DNA of 64,000 nucleotides from Actinomycetales bacterium (GTDB lineage Bacteria; Actinomycetota; Actinomycetes; Mycobacteriales; Micromonosporaceae): the NCBI GenBank assembly GCA_002919305.1, contig PKFB01000024.1:124001-188000 (forward strand). Direction: 5' to 3'. Shown in pieces: positions 38,665 through 48,716 of the stretch (positions are counted from its first letter, which is position 1; every line of letters begins with the position of its first letter). The notes beneath the pieces were generated by a model. The model did no database searches and had not been told where the DNA came from. It was given only the letters and a program-made list of their open reading frames with translations. The position numbers and the translations under genes are program-made.

Positions 38665-41475
38665 GTGGCGGAGTTTCGCCTGCTCGGCCCGGTAGAGCTG
38701 CGGGTGGATGGAGACGTTCTAGAGCTGGGCCCTCCCAAACAACGGGTGGTCCTGGTGGCGCTCCTCATGGACGCCGGCCGTCCGGTGCCGGTCAGCACGT
38801 TGGTGGAGCGGGTCTGGGGTGACCCGGCCCCCACCGAAGCGCGTAACGCGCTGTACGCGCACATCATGCGGATCCGACGGATCCTCACCCGGGCCACCGA
38901 AATCGACGGGGTCCCTCGTGGACTTGAGCGGACCCCGACCGGCTATGTCCTGCACGTCGATCAGGATCAGATCGACCTGTGGCGGTTCCGCCAGCTGGTG
39001 GAGCAGGGGCGGCAGGCACGGGACGAGGCGGCTAAAGCCGCGGCTTTGACCGAGGCGCTTCAGCTGTGGCATGGAACGCCGTTGGCGGGCTTGACCGGCG
39101 CGTGGGTGGAGCGGATCCGGGAAAGCCTGCGTACCCAGCGTTTAGACGCGGTGTTGGCGTGGGCTCGGGCCAAGTCCTGCCTGGGGCACCACGACGCGGT
39201 GATCGACCAGGTCCATGAGCTGATAGCCGAGTACCCAATGGCCGAGCCGCTCGCCGCGGTCCTGATGCGGACCCTCGCCACGGTCGGCCGCACCGCCGAG
39301 GCCTTGGACTGTTACGCCGCGATCCAGCGGCGGCTAGCCGAGGAGCTGGGCGTAGACCCCAGCGCCGAGCTGCGGGCGCTCCACGAAGCGATCCTGCGGG
39401 GCGAGTTCGACCACCGGGCTGTGGAGCCCACCGTGAGCACACCGGGATACACCGTGCCCGGGCAGCTCCCCTTGGAGGTCGGGGGATTCGTGGGGCGTGA
39501 GGAGGAGCTCAGTCGACTGGACGCCCTGCTCAGCATCGGGGAGCGACGGCCGACCGCGCCGATCGTCTCGACCGTGTCAGGCACCGCAGGGATCGGGAAG
39601 ACCGCCTTGGCGGTCCGGTGGGCGCACCGGGTCGCTGACCGTTTCCCGGACGGTCAGTTGTATGTCAACCTCCGCGGCTTTCACCCCACGGGGAGAGCGG
39701 TCAGTCCGGAGACGGCGATCCGCGGTTTTCTGGAGGCGCTTGGGGTGCCGCCGCAACGGATCCCGACCGACTTTGAGGCGCAGGTGGGTCTGTACCGGAG
39801 CCTGTTGGCTGGGCGGCGGGTACTGGTGTTGCTCGACAACGCCCGCGACTCTGGGCAGGTGCGCCCGCTGCTGCCTGGGGCACCGGGGTGCCTGGCGTTG
39901 GTGACCAGCCGCAATCACCTGTCCGGCCTGGTGGCGACGGAGGGAGCCCACCCGATCACGTTGGATCTGCTTCCGGCTGAGCAGGCGCGCAGGCTGTTGG
40001 CGGAGCGGTTAGGGGCCGATCGGGTGGCCGCCGAACCCGAGGCGGTCGACGAGATCATTGCGCGGTGCGCGCGGCTTCCGTTGGCGCTGGCCATCGTGGC
40101 GGCTCACGCGGCCACCCGTCCGGATTTCCCGCTGCGGGTCCTGGCCGCCCAGCTGCGGGACGCGCAAGGCGGCCTGGATGCGTTCTCTGGAGAGGATGAG
40201 ACCACCGACATCCGGGCGGTGTTCTCCTGGTCCTACCGGGCGCTCAACGCCGATGCGGCTCGGCTGTTTAGGCTGCTGGGGCTGCATCCGGGGCCGGATA
40301 TCGGAGTCCACGCGGCGGCGAGCCTGGCCGGGGTGTCCCGGCAACAGGTACGCCCGTGGCTGGACGAGCTGACCCGGGCCAACCTGATCACCGAGCACGC
40401 GCCTGATCGCTTCACCTTCCATGACTTACTGCGGACTTACGCCGCCGAACTGGCCCGCACGATCGACTCCGACGAGGACCGGCGTGCGGCGCTGCACCGG
40501 CTGTTCGACCACTACCTGCATACCGCGGCGGCCGCCACCGCCCTGATCTACTCTCCCCGGGACCTGATCGATCTGCCGCCGGCACACCCGGGCTCATTCG
40601 TTGACGCGTTCAGCGACCGTGGGCACGCGTTGACATGGCTGATTACCGAACAGTCGGTGTTGGTGGCGGTCGTGGACCACGCCACCGCGATGGGGTGTGA
40701 AACCCACGCCTGGCAATTGGCCTGGACTTTGTTCAACTTCTTCGATCGACGCGGACATTGGCATGACCAGCTCGGCATGCAACGGTCCGCGCTGCAGGCG
40801 GCGCGTCAGTTGAGGGACCGGACTGGGGAGGCGTACGCCCACCGCGGCATCGGGCGTGCCCAGCTGCGATTGGGGCGCTACCAGGAGGCGGTCACCCATC
40901 TGCAACACGCTTTGGAGCTGTATCAGGAGCTGGGCGACATCGTCGGGCAGACCCATATCCACCTCGGCCTTGGCGGGGCGTACACGCGGCAAGGCCGGCA
41001 TGAGGAGGGGATGCGGTACGTCCGGAGCGCCTTGGAACTGGCCACCTCGATCGATTACCGGTACGGACAGGCCAGGGCGCTGAACAACATCGGGTGGGTG
41101 CTCGCAAACACAGGACAGCACAAGCAGGCGTTGAACTACTGCCAACAGGCGCTGGCATTGCAGCAGCAGATCGGGGACCGGCTGGGACAGGCCGCCACCT
41201 GGGACAGTCTCGGCTACATCAACTCCCATCTGGGGCGATATGAGCAGGCTGTCGCCTGCTACACGCACGCGTTGGATCTGTACCGGCAGGCCGGTGACAG
41301 ATACAACGAAGCCGACACGCTGGTCTCGCTGGGAGACGCCCACCACGCCGCCGGTGACCCAGTCGCCGCCCGGGAAACCTGGCAGCGGGCTTTAGAGATC
41401 CTCGATCAGTTCGGCGGTTCCATCGCCGAGGACGTGCGAACCAGGCTGCGGAATCTGGGCCACCGGGCGGGGTGA
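38665..41475 (+). CDS. AfsR/SARP-family regulator with NB-ARC and TPR domains
   Basis: This 936-residue regulator has an OmpR-like DNA-binding domain (residues 1-95; ELGPPKQRVVLVALLMDAGRPV), a BTAD domain (about 96-245), an NB-ARC ATPase with P-loop SGTAGIGKTALAV near residue 315 and RVLVLLDNARD, then TPR repeats from about 720 (YAHRGIGRAQLRLGRYQEAV, ALNNIGWVLANTGQHKQAL and others). AfsR-like proteins control secondary metabolism or development, switching when ligands or phosphorylation reach the ATPase/TPR part. No biosynthetic cluster is adjacent. The GTG follows GGGGGAG. It ends seven bases before the convergent YczE-type gene. Confidence 0.93.
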   Translation: MAEFRLLGPVELRVDGDVLELGPPKQRVVLVALLMDAGRPVPVSTLVERVWGDPAPTEARNALYAHIMRIRRILTRATEIDGVPRGLERTPTGYVLHVDQDQIDLWRFRQLVEQGRQARDEAAKAAALTEALQLWHGTPLAGLTGAWVERIRESLRTQRLDAVLAWARAKSCLGHHDAVIDQVHELIAEYPMAEPLAAVLMRTLATVGRTAEALDCYAAIQRRLAEELGVDPSAELRALHEAILRGEFDHRAVEPTVSTPGYTVPGQLPLEVGGFVGREEELSRLDALLSIGERRPTAPIVSTVSGTAGIGKTALAVRWAHRVADRFPDGQLYVNLRGFHPTGRAVSPETAIRGFLEALGVPPQRIPTDFEAQVGLYRSLLAGRRVLVLLDNARDSGQVRPLLPGAPGCLALVTSRNHLSGLVATEGAHPITLDLLPAEQARRLLAERLGADRVAAEPEAVDEIIARCARLPLALAIVAAHAATRPDFPLRVLAAQLRDAQGGLDAFSGEDETTDIRAVFSWSYRALNADAARLFRLLGLHPGPDIGVHAAASLAGVSRQQVRPWLDELTRANLITEHAPDRFTFHDLLRTYAAELARTIDSDEDRRAALHRLFDHYLHTAAAATALIYSPRDLIDLPPAHPGSFVDAFSDRGHALTWLITEQSVLVAVVDHATAMGCETHAWQLAWTLFNFFDRRGHWHDQLGMQRSALQAARQLRDRTGEAYAHRGIGRAQLRLGRYQEAVTHLQHALELYQELGDIVGQTHIHLGLGGAYTRQGRHEEGMRYVRSALELATSIDYRYGQARALNNIGWVLANTGQHKQALNYCQQALALQQQIGDRLGQAATWDSLGYINSHLGRYEQAVACYTHALDLYRQAGDRYNEADTLVSLGDAHHAAGDPVAARETWQRALEILDQFGGSIAEDVRTRLRNLGHRAG

Positions 41476-41482
41476 GCGGCGG

Positions 41483-42145
41483 TTACGCCGACTTGGAAGA
41501 CAGTGCGGCCTCACGGCCGGAGTCAGTGGGCGTGCGGCTTTCCGGGACGGTAAACAGCTGCAGGAATAGCTGGCTGAGCGGGCCGATGCCCAGCGCGTAC
41601 ACGATCGTGCCCGCGCCGACCGTACCTCCCAGCAGAAAACCGATCACCAGGACAGTGATCTCAACCAGGGTGCGTGCCCACCGGATGGACCAGCCGCGGG
41701 CAGCCAGCCCGACCATGAGGCCATCCCGCGGACCCGGACCCAGACGCGCGCCGATGTACAGGCCGGTGGCCATGCCGTTGAGGACGACAGCGGCGATCAG
41801 AAGCGCCCACCGCGCACTGAAGTCATCAGGTGTGGGAAGGAGGGGCAGGGTGAGATCGGTGACGGTGCCGATCACGAGCACGTTGCTGATCGTGCCCAGG
41901 CCGGGGCGCTGCCGCAGCGGGATCCACAACAGCAGAACGAGCGCCCCGACGATGTTGACGATCCACCCCAGGGAGATGCCGGTCTGTTTGGAGACCCCTT
42001 GGTGGAACACATCCCAGGGATCCAGCCCTAACGTGGCCTCGACCTGCATGGCGAGGCTGACACCGTACAACGTCAGACCGGCGTACAGCTGACACAGACG
42101 ACGGGGCAGTCGATCAACGGCGCGGAGCTTGCTGATCAAAGCCAT
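41483..42145 (-). CDS. YczE-like membrane protein
   Basis: The 220-residue protein has about five hydrophobic segments, with LYAGLTLYGVSLAMQVEATLGLDPWDVFHQGVSK near the start and GMATGLYIGARLGPGPRDGLMVGLA in the middle, matching the YczE/YyaS/YitT group. Such proteins often stand divergent to a MocR regulator, as here, and may be transporters; substrates are unknown. I chose the ATG at 42145, which begins MALISKLRAVDRLP; an in-frame start at 42166 is less likely. Direct repeats shared with the MocR gene lie in the 65-base gap. Confidence 0.85.
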   Translation of the reverse strand: MALISKLRAVDRLPRRLCQLYAGLTLYGVSLAMQVEATLGLDPWDVFHQGVSKQTGISLGWIVNIVGALVLLLWIPLRQRPGLGTISNVLVIGTVTDLTLPLLPTPDDFSARWALLIAAVVLNGMATGLYIGARLGPGPRDGLMVGLAARGWSIRWARTLVEITVLVIGFLLGGTVGAGTIVYALGIGPLSQLFLQLFTVPESRTPTDSGREAALSSKSA

Positions 42146-42161
42146 GAGTGACAGCCTTAAG

Positions 42162-42222
42162 GCCAATAGCGAGAGTCAGTAGAGCCAATCGTGTGAAGGT
42201 GGCTTGATCTATGGTGGCCAAT
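42162..42222. repeat. Three GCCAAT boxes on one helix face
   Basis: GCCAAT occurs at 42162-42167, 42184-42189 and 42217-42222, with starts 22 and 33 bases apart, exact multiples of 11. The first and third copies extend to GGCCAATAG. They span the divergent YczE-MocR gap and enter the first codons of the MocR gene. MocR regulators are known to bind direct repeats, so this is a likely MocR site. Confidence 0.6.
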
Positions 42223-43680
42223 AGAGCGATTCGTGGCCGGCAGCTCGCGCGGATGTTGGCGTCGTGGCGTACCAATGGACGCGGTGCCGACGGTGCGCCA
42301 CGGTACCTGGCGCTGGCCGCCGCGATTCGTGGGCTGATCGTGGACGGGCGGCTCCCGCTGGAGCTGCGGCTGCCGGCCGAACGGGATCTGGCCGACGCGT
42401 TGGAGATCAGCCGGACCACCGTGAGCGCCGCCTACGCCACGCTGCGGGACACCGGATTCCTGATCAGCCGTCGTGGGTCCGGCAGCTACACCGCGTTGCC
42501 GCCCGGGTACCGCCTCACCAGCACCGGGCTGCTGTCGTTGGAGGAGGTCCGCTCCGAGCGGCTGGATCTGACCTGCGCGGCGCCAGCGGCGCCCGAAGAA
42601 CTGACGGCTGCGGTGGCCGAGGCCGCCGAAGAGCTGCCCCGATACACCCACGGCCACGGTTACTACCCCATGGGCATCGCGCCGCTGCGTGAACAGGTGG
42701 CGCGGTGGTATACCGCGCGCGGCCTGCCGACCACCCCGGATCAGGTGATCATCACCAATGGAGCGCAACGCGCGTTGGATCTGGCGCTGCGGGCCTTCAC
42801 CGCGCCCGCTGAGCCGTTCCTGATGGAGTCACCGACCTTTCCTGATGCGCCGGCGGCCGCCCGGGCAGCCCGGGTACGGCTGCACAGTTACGGCATCGGC
42901 CCCGACGGGTGGGACACCGAGTTGTTGGAGACCGCGGTGACGCAGATCAGGCCGCGTCTGGCGTACCTGGTCCCTGACTACCACAATCCGACCGGCCAGG
43001 TGATGTCCGAACAGACCCGGGCGCGGCTGGTGGCTGCGGCGCACGCCGCCGGATCGCTGCTGGTGGTGGACGAAACCTTCAGTGAATTACGGTTTGACGG
43101 GCCACCGCTGCCCCCGCCGGTGGCCGCCATTGACCGGCACAACCGGGTACTGTCGGTCGGCAGCATGAGCAAGGCGTACTGGGGTGGCCTGCGCGTGGGG
43201 TGGATCCGTGGAGCGCCGTCGCTGCTGGCCCGTCTGGTTACCGCCCGAGCGACCGTTGATTTGGCGACCGCCGTGCTCGATCAACTGGTGGCGTATCGCC
43301 TGTTGGAGGACGAGCGTCGGGAGAACATCCTGCGGGCGCGGCGCCAGGCGCTGCGGGCGGCGCGGGACACGGTTACCCAAGCCCTGCGTCAGCGGCTGCC
43401 TCAGTGGCGGTTCCGGGAACCCAACGGCGGAATGTCGTTGTGGATTGAGTTGGACGCGCCGATCAGCACCGCGTTGACGCGTGCGGCGGAGACACACGGG
43501 CTGCGGTTGGCTCCGGGGCCACGGTTCGCCGTCGACGGCACATTGGAACACTTCCTACGACTGCCGTTGAGTCCGTCCGTGCAGGAGTTGACCGAGGCGA
43601 TCGAGCGGTTGGCCAACGCCGCCGCGGATGTGGAGGCGGGGACGACGGCGTCGTGGCCCACCCCACTGGTGGTGGCCTGA
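42211..43680 (+). CDS. MocR-family (GntR/aminotransferase fusion) regulator
   Basis: The 489-residue regulator joins an N-terminal GntR winged helix (YLALAAAIRGLIVDGRLPLELRLPAERDLADALEISRTTVSAAYATLRDTGFL) to a fold-type I aminotransferase-like domain from about residue 110. PLP-domain motifs are visible: NGAQRALDLALRAF, LVPDYHNPTGQVMS, VVDETFSEL and the lysine in VGSMSKAYWGGLRVGWI. MocR proteins use PLP or PLP adducts as signals. With the divergent YczE-type gene it forms a known kind of regulator-membrane protein pair, sometimes linked to B6. The ATG at 42211 follows GAAGGTGG; one GCCAAT box lies inside its first codons. Confidence 0.92.
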   Translation: MVANRAIRGRQLARMLASWRTNGRGADGAPRYLALAAAIRGLIVDGRLPLELRLPAERDLADALEISRTTVSAAYATLRDTGFLISRRGSGSYTALPPGYRLTSTGLLSLEEVRSERLDLTCAAPAAPEELTAAVAEAAEELPRYTHGHGYYPMGIAPLREQVARWYTARGLPTTPDQVIITNGAQRALDLALRAFTAPAEPFLMESPTFPDAPAAARAARVRLHSYGIGPDGWDTELLETAVTQIRPRLAYLVPDYHNPTGQVMSEQTRARLVAAAHAAGSLLVVDETFSELRFDGPPLPPPVAAIDRHNRVLSVGSMSKAYWGGLRVGWIRGAPSLLARLVTARATVDLATAVLDQLVAYRLLEDERRENILRARRQALRAARDTVTQALRQRLPQWRFREPNGGMSLWIELDAPISTALTRAAETHGLRLAPGPRFAVDGTLEHFLRLPLSPSVQELTEAIERLANAAADVEAGTTASWPTPLVVA

Positions 43681-43714
43681 CAGCGGGACGAGGCCAGACA
43701 GACGGAGAGGGCCG

Positions 43715-44056
43715 ATGACAGAGCAGGCGAGCGTTGACGCCTTCTTTCAAGCGGAGATCAGAGCTGGGGTGGTGGTGCGGGCGGAGGTCCTCCCCAAGGC
43801 TCACATCCCCGCGTACAAGTTGTGGATCGACTTCGGTGAGCTGGGGGTGAAACAGTCCAGCGCGCGGATCACGGTGCTGTACACGCCTGAGGAACTGGTG
43901 GGACGAACGGTGCTGGCCGTGACCAACTTCCCTCCCCGCCGGGTCGCCGGGTTCCGGTCTGACGTGCTGGTTTTAGGGATTCCGGTTGGGGGTAATGGCG
44001 AAGTCGTCCTGATCCAACCCGATAGGGAGGTGCCGCGGGGTTCCCGCGTCTGGTGA
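43715..44056 (+). CDS. csaA: CsaA-like tRNA-binding-domain protein
   Basis: The 113-residue protein is a stand-alone tRNA-binding (EMAP-like OB-fold) domain. The family pattern runs IRAGVVVRAEVLPKAHIPAYKLWIDFGELGVKQSSARIT, then NFPPRRVAGFRSDVLVLGI. CsaA binds tRNA and, in Bacillus, acts as a secretion-related chaperone; the latter is known for one species only. The ATG at 43715 follows GGAGAGG and starts 35 bases after the MocR stop, so they may share a transcript. Confidence 0.9.
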   Translation: MTEQASVDAFFQAEIRAGVVVRAEVLPKAHIPAYKLWIDFGELGVKQSSARITVLYTPEELVGRTVLAVTNFPPRRVAGFRSDVLVLGIPVGGNGEVVLIQPDREVPRGSRVW

Positions 44057-44311: not shown

Positions 44312-46441
44312 ATGCAGGTCTGGCCGGGGAAACGGTATCCACTGGGCGCCACCTACGACGGCATGGGCACCAATTTCGCGTTGTTCTCGGAAGTTGCCGA
44401 GGCTGTCGAGCTGTGCCTGTTCGATGAGGATGGAACCGAGACCCGGGTTGTACTGCCCGAAGTGGACGGGTTCGTCTGGCACGGTTATCTGCCGGGAGTG
44501 GGGATCGGGCAGCGGTATGGGTTCCGCGTCCACGGCCCGTGGGATCCCGTGAAAGGATTACGCTGCAACCCCCACAAGCTGCTGCTGGACCCCTATGTCA
44601 AAGCGGTCGAGGGCCAGGTGGACTGGCATCCGTCGCTGTTTAGTTATGAATTCGGCGGATCTCCGGAGCAGATGTCGACCACTGATTCAGCCCCCCACAT
44701 GCCCAAAGGGGTCGTGGTCAACCCGTTCTTCGATTGGGGGGATGACCGGCCCCCACATCGCCCGTACCACAGGACCCTCATTTACGAGACGCACGTTCGG
44801 GGCATGACCATGCGGCACCCCGCGGTCCCTGAGCATCTGCGGGGTACCTACGCGGGGATGGCGCATCCGGAGGTGATCGGCCACCTGGTGGATCTGGGAG
44901 TGACGGCGGTGGAATTGATGCCGGTCCACCAGTTCATCCACGACCACGCCTTAGTTCAACGCGGGCTGCGTAACTACTGGGGCTACAACACTATCGGTTT
45001 CCTGGCGCCGCATAACGAGTATTCGGCCACCGGCCAGCGTGGACAGCAGGTGCAGGAGTTTCGAGCCATGGTCAAGGCGTACCACGCGGCCGGTATCGAG
45101 GTGATCCTGGATGTGGTCTACAACCACACCGCCGAAGGCAACCACATGGGTCCGACGCTGAGTTTCCGGGGCATTGACAATGCCGCGTATTACCGGCTGG
45201 TGGACGACGAGCCCATGTACTACATGGACTACACCGGGACCGGCAACAGCCTCAATGTCCGCAATCCCCACGCCTTGCAATTGATCATGGATTCGTTGCG
45301 GTACTGGCTGTTGGAGATGCACGTCGACGGATTCCGGTTCGATCTGGCCTCGGCGCTGGCGCGGGAGTTCTACGACGTGGACCGGCTGGCGACCTTCTTC
45401 GACGTCGTTCAACAGGATCCGTACGTCAGCCAGGCGAAGCTGATCGCCGAGCCGTGGGACGTGGGACCCGGGGGGTACCAGGTGGGGAACTTCCCGCCCC
45501 GCTGGACGGAATGGAACGGCCGTTTCCGGGACACGGTCCGGGACTTCTGGCGGGGAGAACCAGCCACATTGGGAGAGTTCGCCTCCCGGTTTACCGGCTC
45601 AGCCGACCTGTATGAACACACGGGCCGTCGTCCGGTGGCCAGCATTAACTTCGTCACCTGTCACGACGGCTTCACCCTCACGGACCTGGTCTCCTACAAC
45701 GAGAAGCACAACGAGGCCAACGGCGAGGACAACCGCGACGGGGAGAATTACAACCGCTCCTGGAACTGCGGTGTGGAAGGGGAGACCGACGACCCGAAGA
45801 TTCTGGAGCTGCGGGCCCGGCAGCGGCGGAATCTCATAGCCACCTTGCTGCTGTCCCAAGGCGTCCCCATGTTGTCGCACGGAGACGAAATAGGGCGTAC
45901 GCAACGGGGGAACAACAACGCGTACTGTCAGGACAATGAACTGACCTGGGTCGACTGGGAGCAGGCCGACAAACAAATGTTGGCCTTCACACGCTGGTTG
46001 ATCGAATTCCGCCGGCGACATCCGATCTTCTGGCGTCGACGATTCTTCACCGGGAAGCCGATGGATTCGTCGGATGGTGGCCCGCCACTGCCTGACATAT
46101 CCTGGTTCGCTCCGAATGGTCGCTTGATGGGGCGCGATGATTGGGAGGCCGACTTCGGTCAGGCGGTGGGGATCTTCCTCAACGGGGACGGTAATCCCAG
46201 TCGAGATGCCCACGGAGAGCGGATCCTCGACGAGTCATTCCTCATTTTCTTTAACGCAGGGGTGCGGTCTATTGACTTCGTTATCCCCTCTTTGAAATAC
46301 GGTGGAAAGTGGCAGTTGAGTCTGGACACCTCCAGATCGGACTGGGAGACGGTGGCCGAGGGGGAACCTCAGATCGTTGAGGCGGGGGAGCGGATCACGG
46401 TGCAATCCAAGTCCCTCATGCTCCTGATGAGGATGGTGTGA
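44312..46441 (+). CDS. glgX: GlgX, glycogen debranching enzyme
   Basis: GlgX is a GH13 isoamylase-type enzyme that cuts alpha-1,6 branches in glycogen. The 709 residues carry an N-terminal CBM48 (KRYPLGATYDGMGTNFALFSEVAEAVELCLFD), YNHTAEG, the nucleophile motif VDGFRFDLA, LIAEPWDVGPGGYQVG with the acid/base Glu, and INFVTCHDGFTL. Debranching yields linear chains used by TreY next door. The ATG follows AAGGGGAGGG. The 255-base gap before it shows no gene. treY starts one base after the stop. Confidence 0.96.
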   Translation: MQVWPGKRYPLGATYDGMGTNFALFSEVAEAVELCLFDEDGTETRVVLPEVDGFVWHGYLPGVGIGQRYGFRVHGPWDPVKGLRCNPHKLLLDPYVKAVEGQVDWHPSLFSYEFGGSPEQMSTTDSAPHMPKGVVVNPFFDWGDDRPPHRPYHRTLIYETHVRGMTMRHPAVPEHLRGTYAGMAHPEVIGHLVDLGVTAVELMPVHQFIHDHALVQRGLRNYWGYNTIGFLAPHNEYSATGQRGQQVQEFRAMVKAYHAAGIEVILDVVYNHTAEGNHMGPTLSFRGIDNAAYYRLVDDEPMYYMDYTGTGNSLNVRNPHALQLIMDSLRYWLLEMHVDGFRFDLASALAREFYDVDRLATFFDVVQQDPYVSQAKLIAEPWDVGPGGYQVGNFPPRWTEWNGRFRDTVRDFWRGEPATLGEFASRFTGSADLYEHTGRRPVASINFVTCHDGFTLTDLVSYNEKHNEANGEDNRDGENYNRSWNCGVEGETDDPKILELRARQRRNLIATLLLSQGVPMLSHGDEIGRTQRGNNNAYCQDNELTWVDWEQADKQMLAFTRWLIEFRRRHPIFWRRRFFTGKPMDSSDGGPPLPDISWFAPNGRLMGRDDWEADFGQAVGIFLNGDGNPSRDAHGERILDESFLIFFNAGVRSIDFVIPSLKYGGKWQLSLDTSRSDWETVAEGEPQIVEAGERITVQSKSLMLLMRMV

Positions 46442-46442
46442 G

Positions 46443-48716
46443 GTGACGCCGACGTCGACCTACCGCGTGCAGGTTCGACCCGACTTTGATCTTTTCGCCA
46501 CCGCTGGGATCGTCGATTACCTGGCCGCTTTGGGAGTAACCCACCTGTACGCCTCACCATTGCTGCAGGCGGCGCCCGGCTCGAGTCACGGCTACGACGT
46601 TGTCGACTTCTCCCGGGTGAACACCGAGCTCGGATCCGAGAAAGGACGACTGGCGCTGACCGAAGCCCTGGCCGAGCACGACATGGCGCTGGTGGTCGAT
46701 GTCGTCCCCAACCACTGCGGCATCCGGGTGGCTGAGGTCAACCAGGCCTGGTGGGACGTGCTGGCTCACGGTCCCGCCTCCCCCTATGCACGCTGGTTCG
46801 ACATCGACTGGTCCGTCGGCCGGATCATGCTCCCAGTCCTCGGAGACGAGCCGAACGCTCTGGACGACCTCCGTGTGGTGGACGGCGAATTGCGCTATTG
46901 GGAATACCGTTTCCCGATCGCCGCCGGGACCTTGGGAGGCACTCCGCAGCAGGTGCATGACCGACAGCACTACCGCCTGATCTCCTGGCGCCTGGCCGAC
47001 CAAGTCAACTACCGGCGTTTCTTCGCGATCAACGACTTGGCGGCGGTGCGGGTGGAGGATCCAGAGGTTTTCGAGGCCACCCACCGGGAAGTGCTGCGGT
47101 GGTACGCCGCCGGGGAACTCACCGGGTTCCGGGTGGACCATCCCGACGGGCTGCGCGATCCAGCGGGGTATTTCGCGCGGCTGCACGACGCGGCTCCGCG
47201 GGCCTGGATCGTCGTGGAGAAGATCCTGGAGCGTGGGGAACGGCTCCCCGACTGGCCGGGCGTCGCCGGCACCACCGGGTACGACGCCTTGCGGCAGATT
47301 GGTGGCCTGTTCATCGACCCGGCCGGCGAGGCCGCCTTCACCGCGCTGGACACCGCGTTGACGGGGCGTGACGTGAGCTGGCAGGACTTCGCGTACCGCT
47401 GTAAACGCGAGGTGGCCACCACGATGCTGATCCCCGATGTTCGGCGCATGGCGCGTCTGGTTCCCCAGGTGCCGGAGGCGGAGGAGGTGCTTGTGGAGGT
47501 CCTCGCCTGTTTCCCGGTCTACCGCTCCTATCTGCCCGTGGGGCGGGAATATTTGCAGTACGCCGTGACTGAGGCGATCCGGCGCCGTCCGGATCTACGG
47601 ACCGGGATCGAGGCGGTGGCCTCGCGGCTGGCCGACCCCACCGACGAGTTGGCGGCGAGGTTTCAACAGACCTCCGGGGCGGTGATGGCCAAAGGCATCG
47701 AGGACACCGCCTTTTACCGCTGGACGCGGTTTGCGGCGCTGAATGAGGTCGGTTCGGATCCGGAGCGGTTCGGTCTGAGCGTGACCGAATTCCACGCGGT
47801 CGCCAGCTACCACCAGCGCCGATACCCGACCGGCATGACCACACTGTCCACTCACGACACCAAGTGGTCTGAGGATGTCCGGGCCCGGATGGCGGTGCTG
47901 TCCGAGATACCCGACGAGTGGGCCTCGTGCCTGCAGCGCCTGATGGCGCGCGCACCACTGCCTGAGCCTGGGCTCGCTCACCTGCTGTGGCAGGCCACCG
48001 TCGGTGCCTGGCCTCTGGTGCGGGAACGGCTGCACGGGTACGCGGAGAAGGCCGCCCGGGAGGCGCGGACCGCCACCTCCTGGGAGAACCCCGACGCCGA
48101 GTTCGAACAGACGCTGCACCAGGTAGTGGACCGCATGTACGACGACCCGGTGCTGAACGCGGAGCTGTCGGCGTTCGTGAAGCGGGTCACCCCGTATGGC
48201 TGGTCCAACTCTCTGGGGCAGAAGCTGCTGCAGCTGATGATGCCGGGGGTGCCGGACACCTATCAGGGCTGCGAGCTGTGGGACAACTCCCTCGTCGACC
48301 CCGACAACCGGCGACCGGTCGATTTTCGACTTCGTCGAACGCTGCTGGCGCGGCTGGACCAGGGATGGCTACCCCCGGTGGACGCCAGCGGAGCCGTCAA
48401 ACTGCTGGTGGTGAGCCGGGCGCTCCGGCTACGCCGGGACGCTCCACAGCTGTTCACCGGCTATCACCCGCTCCGGGCACGTGGCCCCGCGGCCGACCAT
48501 CTGGTGGCGTTCGACCGCGGGGGTGCGGTGGCGTTGGCGACCCGGCTGCCGGTGGGGTTGGAACGACGGGGCGGTTGGAGAGACACCGAGGTGCTGCTGC
48601 CGCCGGGGCGCTTTGTGGAGGTCCTGACGGGGCGACACATCACGGGCGGGCCGGTGGCGCTAGAGGACCTATTCCAGCGGTATCCGGTCGCGCTCTTGAC
48701 ACGCCAGCAGGCCTGA
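46443..48716 (+). CDS. treY: TreY, maltooligosyltrehalose synthase
   Basis: TreY isomerises the reducing-end glucose of a linear malto-oligosaccharide to an alpha,alpha-1,1 linkage. The 757-residue GH13 enzyme shows STYRVQVRPDFDLFATAGIVDYLAALGVTHLYASP, DVVPNHCG, ELTGFRVDHPDGLRDP with the nucleophile Asp, IVVEKILERGE with the acid/base Glu, and TTLSTHDTKWSEDVRAR. The GTG start is one base after the glgX stop. With GlgX before and TreZ after, it forms the glucan-to-trehalose route. Confidence 0.96.
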   Translation: MTPTSTYRVQVRPDFDLFATAGIVDYLAALGVTHLYASPLLQAAPGSSHGYDVVDFSRVNTELGSEKGRLALTEALAEHDMALVVDVVPNHCGIRVAEVNQAWWDVLAHGPASPYARWFDIDWSVGRIMLPVLGDEPNALDDLRVVDGELRYWEYRFPIAAGTLGGTPQQVHDRQHYRLISWRLADQVNYRRFFAINDLAAVRVEDPEVFEATHREVLRWYAAGELTGFRVDHPDGLRDPAGYFARLHDAAPRAWIVVEKILERGERLPDWPGVAGTTGYDALRQIGGLFIDPAGEAAFTALDTALTGRDVSWQDFAYRCKREVATTMLIPDVRRMARLVPQVPEAEEVLVEVLACFPVYRSYLPVGREYLQYAVTEAIRRRPDLRTGIEAVASRLADPTDELAARFQQTSGAVMAKGIEDTAFYRWTRFAALNEVGSDPERFGLSVTEFHAVASYHQRRYPTGMTTLSTHDTKWSEDVRARMAVLSEIPDEWASCLQRLMARAPLPEPGLAHLLWQATVGAWPLVRERLHGYAEKAAREARTATSWENPDAEFEQTLHQVVDRMYDDPVLNAELSAFVKRVTPYGWSNSLGQKLLQLMMPGVPDTYQGCELWDNSLVDPDNRRPVDFRLRRTLLARLDQGWLPPVDASGAVKLLVVSRALRLRRDAPQLFTGYHPLRARGPAADHLVAFDRGGAVALATRLPVGLERRGGWRDTEVLLPPGRFVEVLTGRHITGGPVALEDLFQRYPVALLTRQQA

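Follow-up and report, generated by a model that had tools for sequence, protein, structure and literature searches.

The divergently transcribed genes yczE and yczR, which encode a membrane protein and a MocR-type regulator, respectively, lie in a 64,000-nucleotide stretch of DNA from an Actinomycetales bacterium of the Micromonosporaceae (assembly GCA_002919305.1, contig PKFB01000024.1, positions 124,001 to 188,000). This whole stretch is referred to as the window, and all positions are counted within it. The intergenic gap between the two genes is 65 bp long (42146–42210) and contains a candidate operator of YczR. The genes and elements are as follows, with counts over 82 referring to the Micromonosporaceae gaps described below.

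41483–42145, minus strand: yczE, membrane protein YczE of 220 amino acid residues, likely start ATG at 42145, divergent to yczR, NCBIfam NF052291
42149–42157, minus strand: place of the family's conserved TGCCACTCT by the yczE start, degenerate in the window (TGACAGCCT)
42161–42167, plus strand: box 1, GGCCAAT, putative half-site in direct orientation, 22 bp ahead of box 2, with no more than one mismatch in 75/82 family gaps
42183–42189, plus strand: box 2, AGCCAAT, left arm of the inverted repeat, GCCAAT exact in 80/82 family gaps
42200–42204, minus strand: inverted arm TGGCT (AGCCA on the minus strand), TGG in 81/82 and TGGC in 73/82 family gaps, fits the published GGCCA-N12-TGGCC
42211–43680, plus strand: yczR, MocR-type regulator of 489 amino acid residues, GntR winged helix-turn-helix and aminotransferase-like domain, NCBIfam NF052290
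42216–42222, plus strand: third GGCCAAT, in yczR codons 2–4, offset not conserved

The plus-strand copies of GCCAAT start at 42162, 42184, and 42217, with spacings of 22 and 33 bp, and the first and third copies extend to GGCCAATAG (starts at 42161 and 42216). These positions and extensions, first noticed in an initial annotation of the sequence, were all confirmed. The cluster is real. The window as a whole is not enriched in GCCAAT (17 copies on both strands, compared with a shuffle mean of 21.8), and none of 500 first-order Markov sequences gave three same-strand copies within such a span. The three copies had been placed between the two genes and read as direct repeats of a MocR regulator, all in exact 11-bp phase. 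Boxes 1 and 2 do lie in the gap, approximately two helical turns apart, but the third copy lies within the coding sequence of yczR, and an inverted arm, TGGCT at 42200–42204, had been overlooked. This arm begins 12 bp beyond the AGCCA that starts at 42183, so that 42183–42204 reads AGCCA-N12-TGGCT, of which the core GCCA-N12-TGGC is exact and the outer pair carries one symmetric change. An automatic search for inverted repeats with a minimum length of 8 was blind to arms of 5 bp. Given the inverted arm, the layout is direct-direct-inverted and not three direct boxes.

The YczR regulators are encoded divergently to yczE (Milano et al., 2016, PMC4944035; RegPrecise regulog PdxR3), and the gaps between these genes in actinobacteria contain GGCCA and an inverted TGGCC at a 12-nucleotide spacing. 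In two families, Mycobacteriaceae and Streptomycetaceae, a direct repeat is added, and Streptomycetaceae have a fourth repeat as well (PMC4944035). Both the inverted motif (AGCCA-N12-TGGCT) and the additional direct repeat (GGCCAAT at 42161–42167) were found in the window. The proteins also agreed with this assignment. The yczE product matched the NCBIfam model NF052291 (membrane_YczE) with 262.1 bits (cut-off 205) and had no Pfam match at an E-value of 0.001, and the yczR product matched NF052290 (MocR_like_YczR) with 592 bits (cut-off 487.4) and contained Pfam matches to GntR and Aminotran_1_2. Thus, a regulator of the YczR group and a divergent YczE neighbor, which together characterize the YczR-yczE regulon, were both found with bit scores above curated cut-offs, and the earlier naming of the flanking genes as YczE- and MocR-type was correct. 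The features described for YczR are a Val-Asp-Glu in the AAT domain, a Glu-Arg in the winged helix-turn-helix domain and a Trp in the loop of the pyridoxal phosphate (PLP)-binding lysine (PMC4944035). In the protein of the window, VDET was found at 286, PAERD at 55 and SKAYW at 320, by its own numbering and not that of the paper.

The nearest relative, locus L040, encodes a regulator 65% identical to that of the window, with a protein alignment from residue 2 and a DNA alignment that spans the start codon. Because translation continues into this conserved N-terminus, the ATG at 42211 is the start of the regulator, and the third GCCAAT is therefore coding sequence.

Conservation was assessed across related gaps. 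Relatives were gathered by whole-genome searches, a contig scan with a single protein having given two relatives. A total of 151 loci were collected, of which 130 had YczE divergent beside the regulator and 21 were dropped for having no MocR or no YczE hit, although a YczE that has diverged, or a flank that is too short, may also explain the lack of a YczE hit. The dropped loci include L013, L037, and L120 of the family, and L009 was left out as a duplicate of L011. The gap sets consisted of 82 Micromonosporaceae gaps (29 genera, window included) and 47 from other families. The family set was not random, as it was composed of the window, 43 best-match loci and 38 of 39 stretches chosen for genus coverage; two genera supplied 24 and 11 of its gaps, and per-genus counts were therefore added.

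Box 2 and the TGG of the inverted arm were nearly invariant in the family, and box 1 was exact in 62/82 gaps. Boxes 1 and 2 were 22 bp apart in 48 of these 62 gaps; the distance was 21 bp in 10 others and 23 bp in the remaining 4. This indicates that the proposed phasing is conserved for this pair only; the third box was not conserved at its offset. With one locus per genus, the columns of box 1 held 0.96–1.78 bits and those of the spacer less than 0.5 bits as far as the position 5 bp ahead of box 2; the four base pairs directly preceding the GCCAAT of box 2 were conserved too (0.87–1.78 bits). A score of at least 7.6 was reached by 82/82 family gaps, compared with 11/1640 shuffled gaps and 7/164 shifted stretches. 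When box 1 was also required, the counts were 75/82, 1/1640, and 0/164, respectively. Thus, the published motif layout, the conservation in the family and the shuffle control make the site of the window another case of the known kind of YczR operator. We therefore predict, with a probability of about 0.85, that 42161–42204 is the operator of YczR in the divergent yczE/yczR gap.

The whole three-part pattern occurred once in the 4.94-Mb genome (control, 0). Six other MocR- or aminotransferase-like loci of the same genome, from 11 other matches, scored no more than 6.0, with starts that were extrapolated. The score scan covered 20 of the 21 dropped loci, the exception being L008 (no MocR hit). 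Among 14 related loci of other genomes without a YczE hit, nine (L010, L013, L039, L077, L084, L087, L120, L142, and L147) scored at least 7.6 before the regulator. The retention of the site in these nine suggests that YczR controls its own gene, and the evidence leans toward autoregulation. The site of the window is predicted to be probably autoregulatory.

Several observations weigh against assigning 42161–42204 to YczR. Box 2 and the arm were anchored by score, which makes their counts partly a product of selection; box 1 took no part in the anchoring. Box 1 was below threshold in 7/82 family gaps and reduced to GGCAAAT in L040. Box 2 and the arm alone are not unique, with 5 occurrences in the genome and 2 in the reversed control. 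The other five of the 14 related loci that lacked a YczE hit scored below 7.6. Outside the family, 17/47 gaps did not fit CCA-N12-TGG at the anchor, and of the 30 that did, 14 had a reversed upstream box (ATTGG) and two a direct GCCAAT. The window lacks the −10-like hexamer [TC]ANNNT of its relatives, and the promoter positions discussed below are putative. Finally, the sections of the literature that were covered gave binding data for none of the YczR proteins.

The reversed boxes outside the family had TGG at offset −17 in 13/14. By comparison, any upstream ATTGG was found in 8/82 family gaps and an exact direct box 1 in 62/82. Thus, the direction of the outer box differs by family, while the place of the inner pair is kept. 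In L028, L033, L090, L092, L139, L140, and L145, all from other families, the upstream half-site was reversed relative to Micromonosporaceae, reading ATTGGC, and the inner pair was in place with some base changes.

On the yczE side, GCCA was found at the place of TGCCACTCT in 76/82 family gaps, and [TC]ANNNT was found on the minus strand near the yczE start in 69/82, compared with 19/410 shifted places. The TGCCACTCT element of the relatives is perhaps the −10 element of yczE. Box 1 of the window lies just as far from the yczE start as it does in relatives such as L022, despite the degenerate TGACAGCCT. Consensus scans of 42000–42400 found no sigma-70 promoter or terminator, which is weakly informative for an actinobacterium. 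On the yczR side, a Shine-Dalgarno-like GAAGG lies within the inverted pair, and 6 bp separate the end of this pair from the start codon of yczR.

These features suggest how the predicted operator might work. It would consist of three half-sites, of which boxes 1 and 2 are direct and on approximately the same helix face, and box 2 and the arm are inverted with N12 between them. A YczR dimer would occupy one of the two pairs, direct or inverted, and its PLP or effector state would decide which, as described for PdxR. This would repress yczR itself, whose GAAGG is enclosed by the inverted pair, and switch yczE, whose likely promoter lies beside box 1.

A different view is that each of the three GCCAAT copies functions as a half-site, in 11-bp phase with the others, and that the third, within the gene, is an accessory site at which the DNA loops or bends. 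The lack of any three-copy cluster in the 500 Markov sequences is consistent with this view, as is the TGGCCA that L040 has at the aligned place. A comparison across orthologous gaps, which had been suggested in the initial annotation, supported boxes 1 and 2 but not the third, which was found with at most one mismatch at offsets 32–34 from box 2 in 1/82 family gaps, the window itself, and in 0/81 relatives. Its columns held 0.09–0.31 bits with one locus per genus. An exact GCCAAT at offsets 20–61 was found in 7/82 family gaps, at 33 in the window and at 43–44 in the six others. The near match of L040, GCCACT at offset 31, aligns with the third box of the window but is 2 bp off, and it owes part of its likeness to the ATG-GCC start of that gene. 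Moreover, the third box is in frame as GTG GCC AAT, encoding Val-Ala-Asn at codons 2–4 of yczR, with GCCAAT itself at codons 3–4, and AAT is not rare in yczR (four AAT and four AAC). The third GCCAAT is thus coding sequence and probably not part of the core site. Three direct boxes as one operator unit were rejected, given that the third is unconserved in the family gaps, and a functional third box is unlikely.

The same view draws on another potential half-site within yczR of many relatives, CAATTGGC, which contains rare codons. In L019, L045–L047, and other family loci, CAATTGGC lies at approximately codons 10–12 of yczR, about 33 bp from the arm. The in-gene CAATTGGC was not found in yczR of the window. 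A Gln-Leu in the N-terminus of the regulator was found in 80/82 family loci, L011 and L055 being without it. The TGGC position at this Gln-Leu was 32–36 bp from the arm in 73 family loci and exactly 33 bp in 57. At this near position, TGGC was found in 53/73 and the complete CAATTGGC in 38/73; Gln was encoded by CAA in 57/73 and Leu by TTG in 41/73. Elsewhere in codons 2–130 of the same genes, with each codon counted once, CAA made up 8/141 Gln codons, and after the site TTG made up 59/1481 Leu codons. In the following 12 codons CAA was 0/53 and TTG 23/212, the latter indicating a general, if modest, excess of TTG near the start. When the loci were grouped by genus, the Gln codon was mostly CAA in 14/22 (binomial p = 7e-13, with relatedness ignored). 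Seven loci with the position at other distances, including the window, had CAA in 1/7 and TTG in 0/7 (Fisher p = 0.0014 for CAA, from a small number of loci, some of them related to each other). Outside the family, CAA was found in 5/11 near and 0/4 far positions, a weak difference (p = 0.23).

It is possible that CAATTGGC is an in-gene half-site in many Micromonosporaceae, as the codon counts suggest. The main rival explanation for its rare codons is a codon ramp of translation, but the other Gln codons show no such bias. A fuller proposal, which we regard as tentative and rather doubtful, is that the Micromonosporaceae operator reaches into yczR, with CAATTGGC as a fourth half-site about 33 bp, or three turns, from the arm and kept by selection on synonymous codons. 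It would tend to be lost where the start codon has shifted away from the arm, as in the window, in which the GGCCAAT of codons 2–4 may be a rebuilt replacement at another phased position. In the sections that were covered, the published account of the YczR operator is limited to the intergenic region (PMC4944035).

It is very improbable that the repeats arose by chance, or are linked to a promoter, and play no part in binding YczR. Box 1 and the element by the yczE start may touch promoter elements, but the repeats were conserved in 29 genera, with a mostly flat spacer in between, stood out from the shuffled and shifted controls and matched the published motif. That they are CCAAT boxes of another, general DNA-binding protein is suggested by sequence resemblance only and has next to no likelihood, since the CCAAT-box factors of that name are eukaryotic, and the three-part pattern occurs once in the genome of the window and accompanies yczR in relatives.

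Several other genes surround the yczE/yczR pair. A small protein with a tRNA_bind domain (Pfam PF01588) is encoded after yczR on the same strand (43628–44056), and we take it to be CsaA-like. A reading frame of 936 amino acid residues (38665–41475) converges toward yczE, and its product is presumably a BTAD/NB-ARC/TPR regulator. Two large reading frames span 44312–48716 and presumably belong to a trehalose cluster, as its genes for glycogen debranching and for maltooligosyl-trehalose synthase.

The prediction of 42161–42204 as the YczR operator adds a well-conserved candidate operator for a MocR subgroup and places the published YczR motif in Micromonosporaceae. The codon evidence suggests that searches limited to intergenic regions may overlook part of the YczR site. 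Moreover, the difference in box 1 direction between families offers a way to probe what decides whether MocR dimers bind direct or inverted repeats.

Similar to the published actinobacterial YczR/YczE operator (PMC4944035), the site of the window lies between divergent genes and combines the inverted pair of the GGCCA-N12-TGGCC type with an additional direct repeat, but its outer base pair is A/T (AGCCA…TGGCT). A literature search on operators of MocR in Micromonospora found nothing. Micromonosporaceae are outside the regulog names of Table 1 in PMC4944035, although they may be among the 58 actinobacterial regulons of its Table S2. Among MocR regulators in general, direct-direct-inverted is the commonest layout, with 245 regulons in Table 2 of Suvorova and Rodionov (2016, PMC5320631), and the distances between sites equal one or several helical turns (PMC5320631). 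The site of the window is similar in its helical-turn distances, and no difference in layout was found from the sites described there; YczE and YczR are unnamed in the portions of that main text that were covered. PdxR of Bacillus clausii uses direct and inverted repeats, the choice between which is said to depend on PLP (PMC5320631, PMC4944035). Similar to the PdxR site, the site of the window has direct and inverted repeats together; different from it are the regulator group and the target genes.
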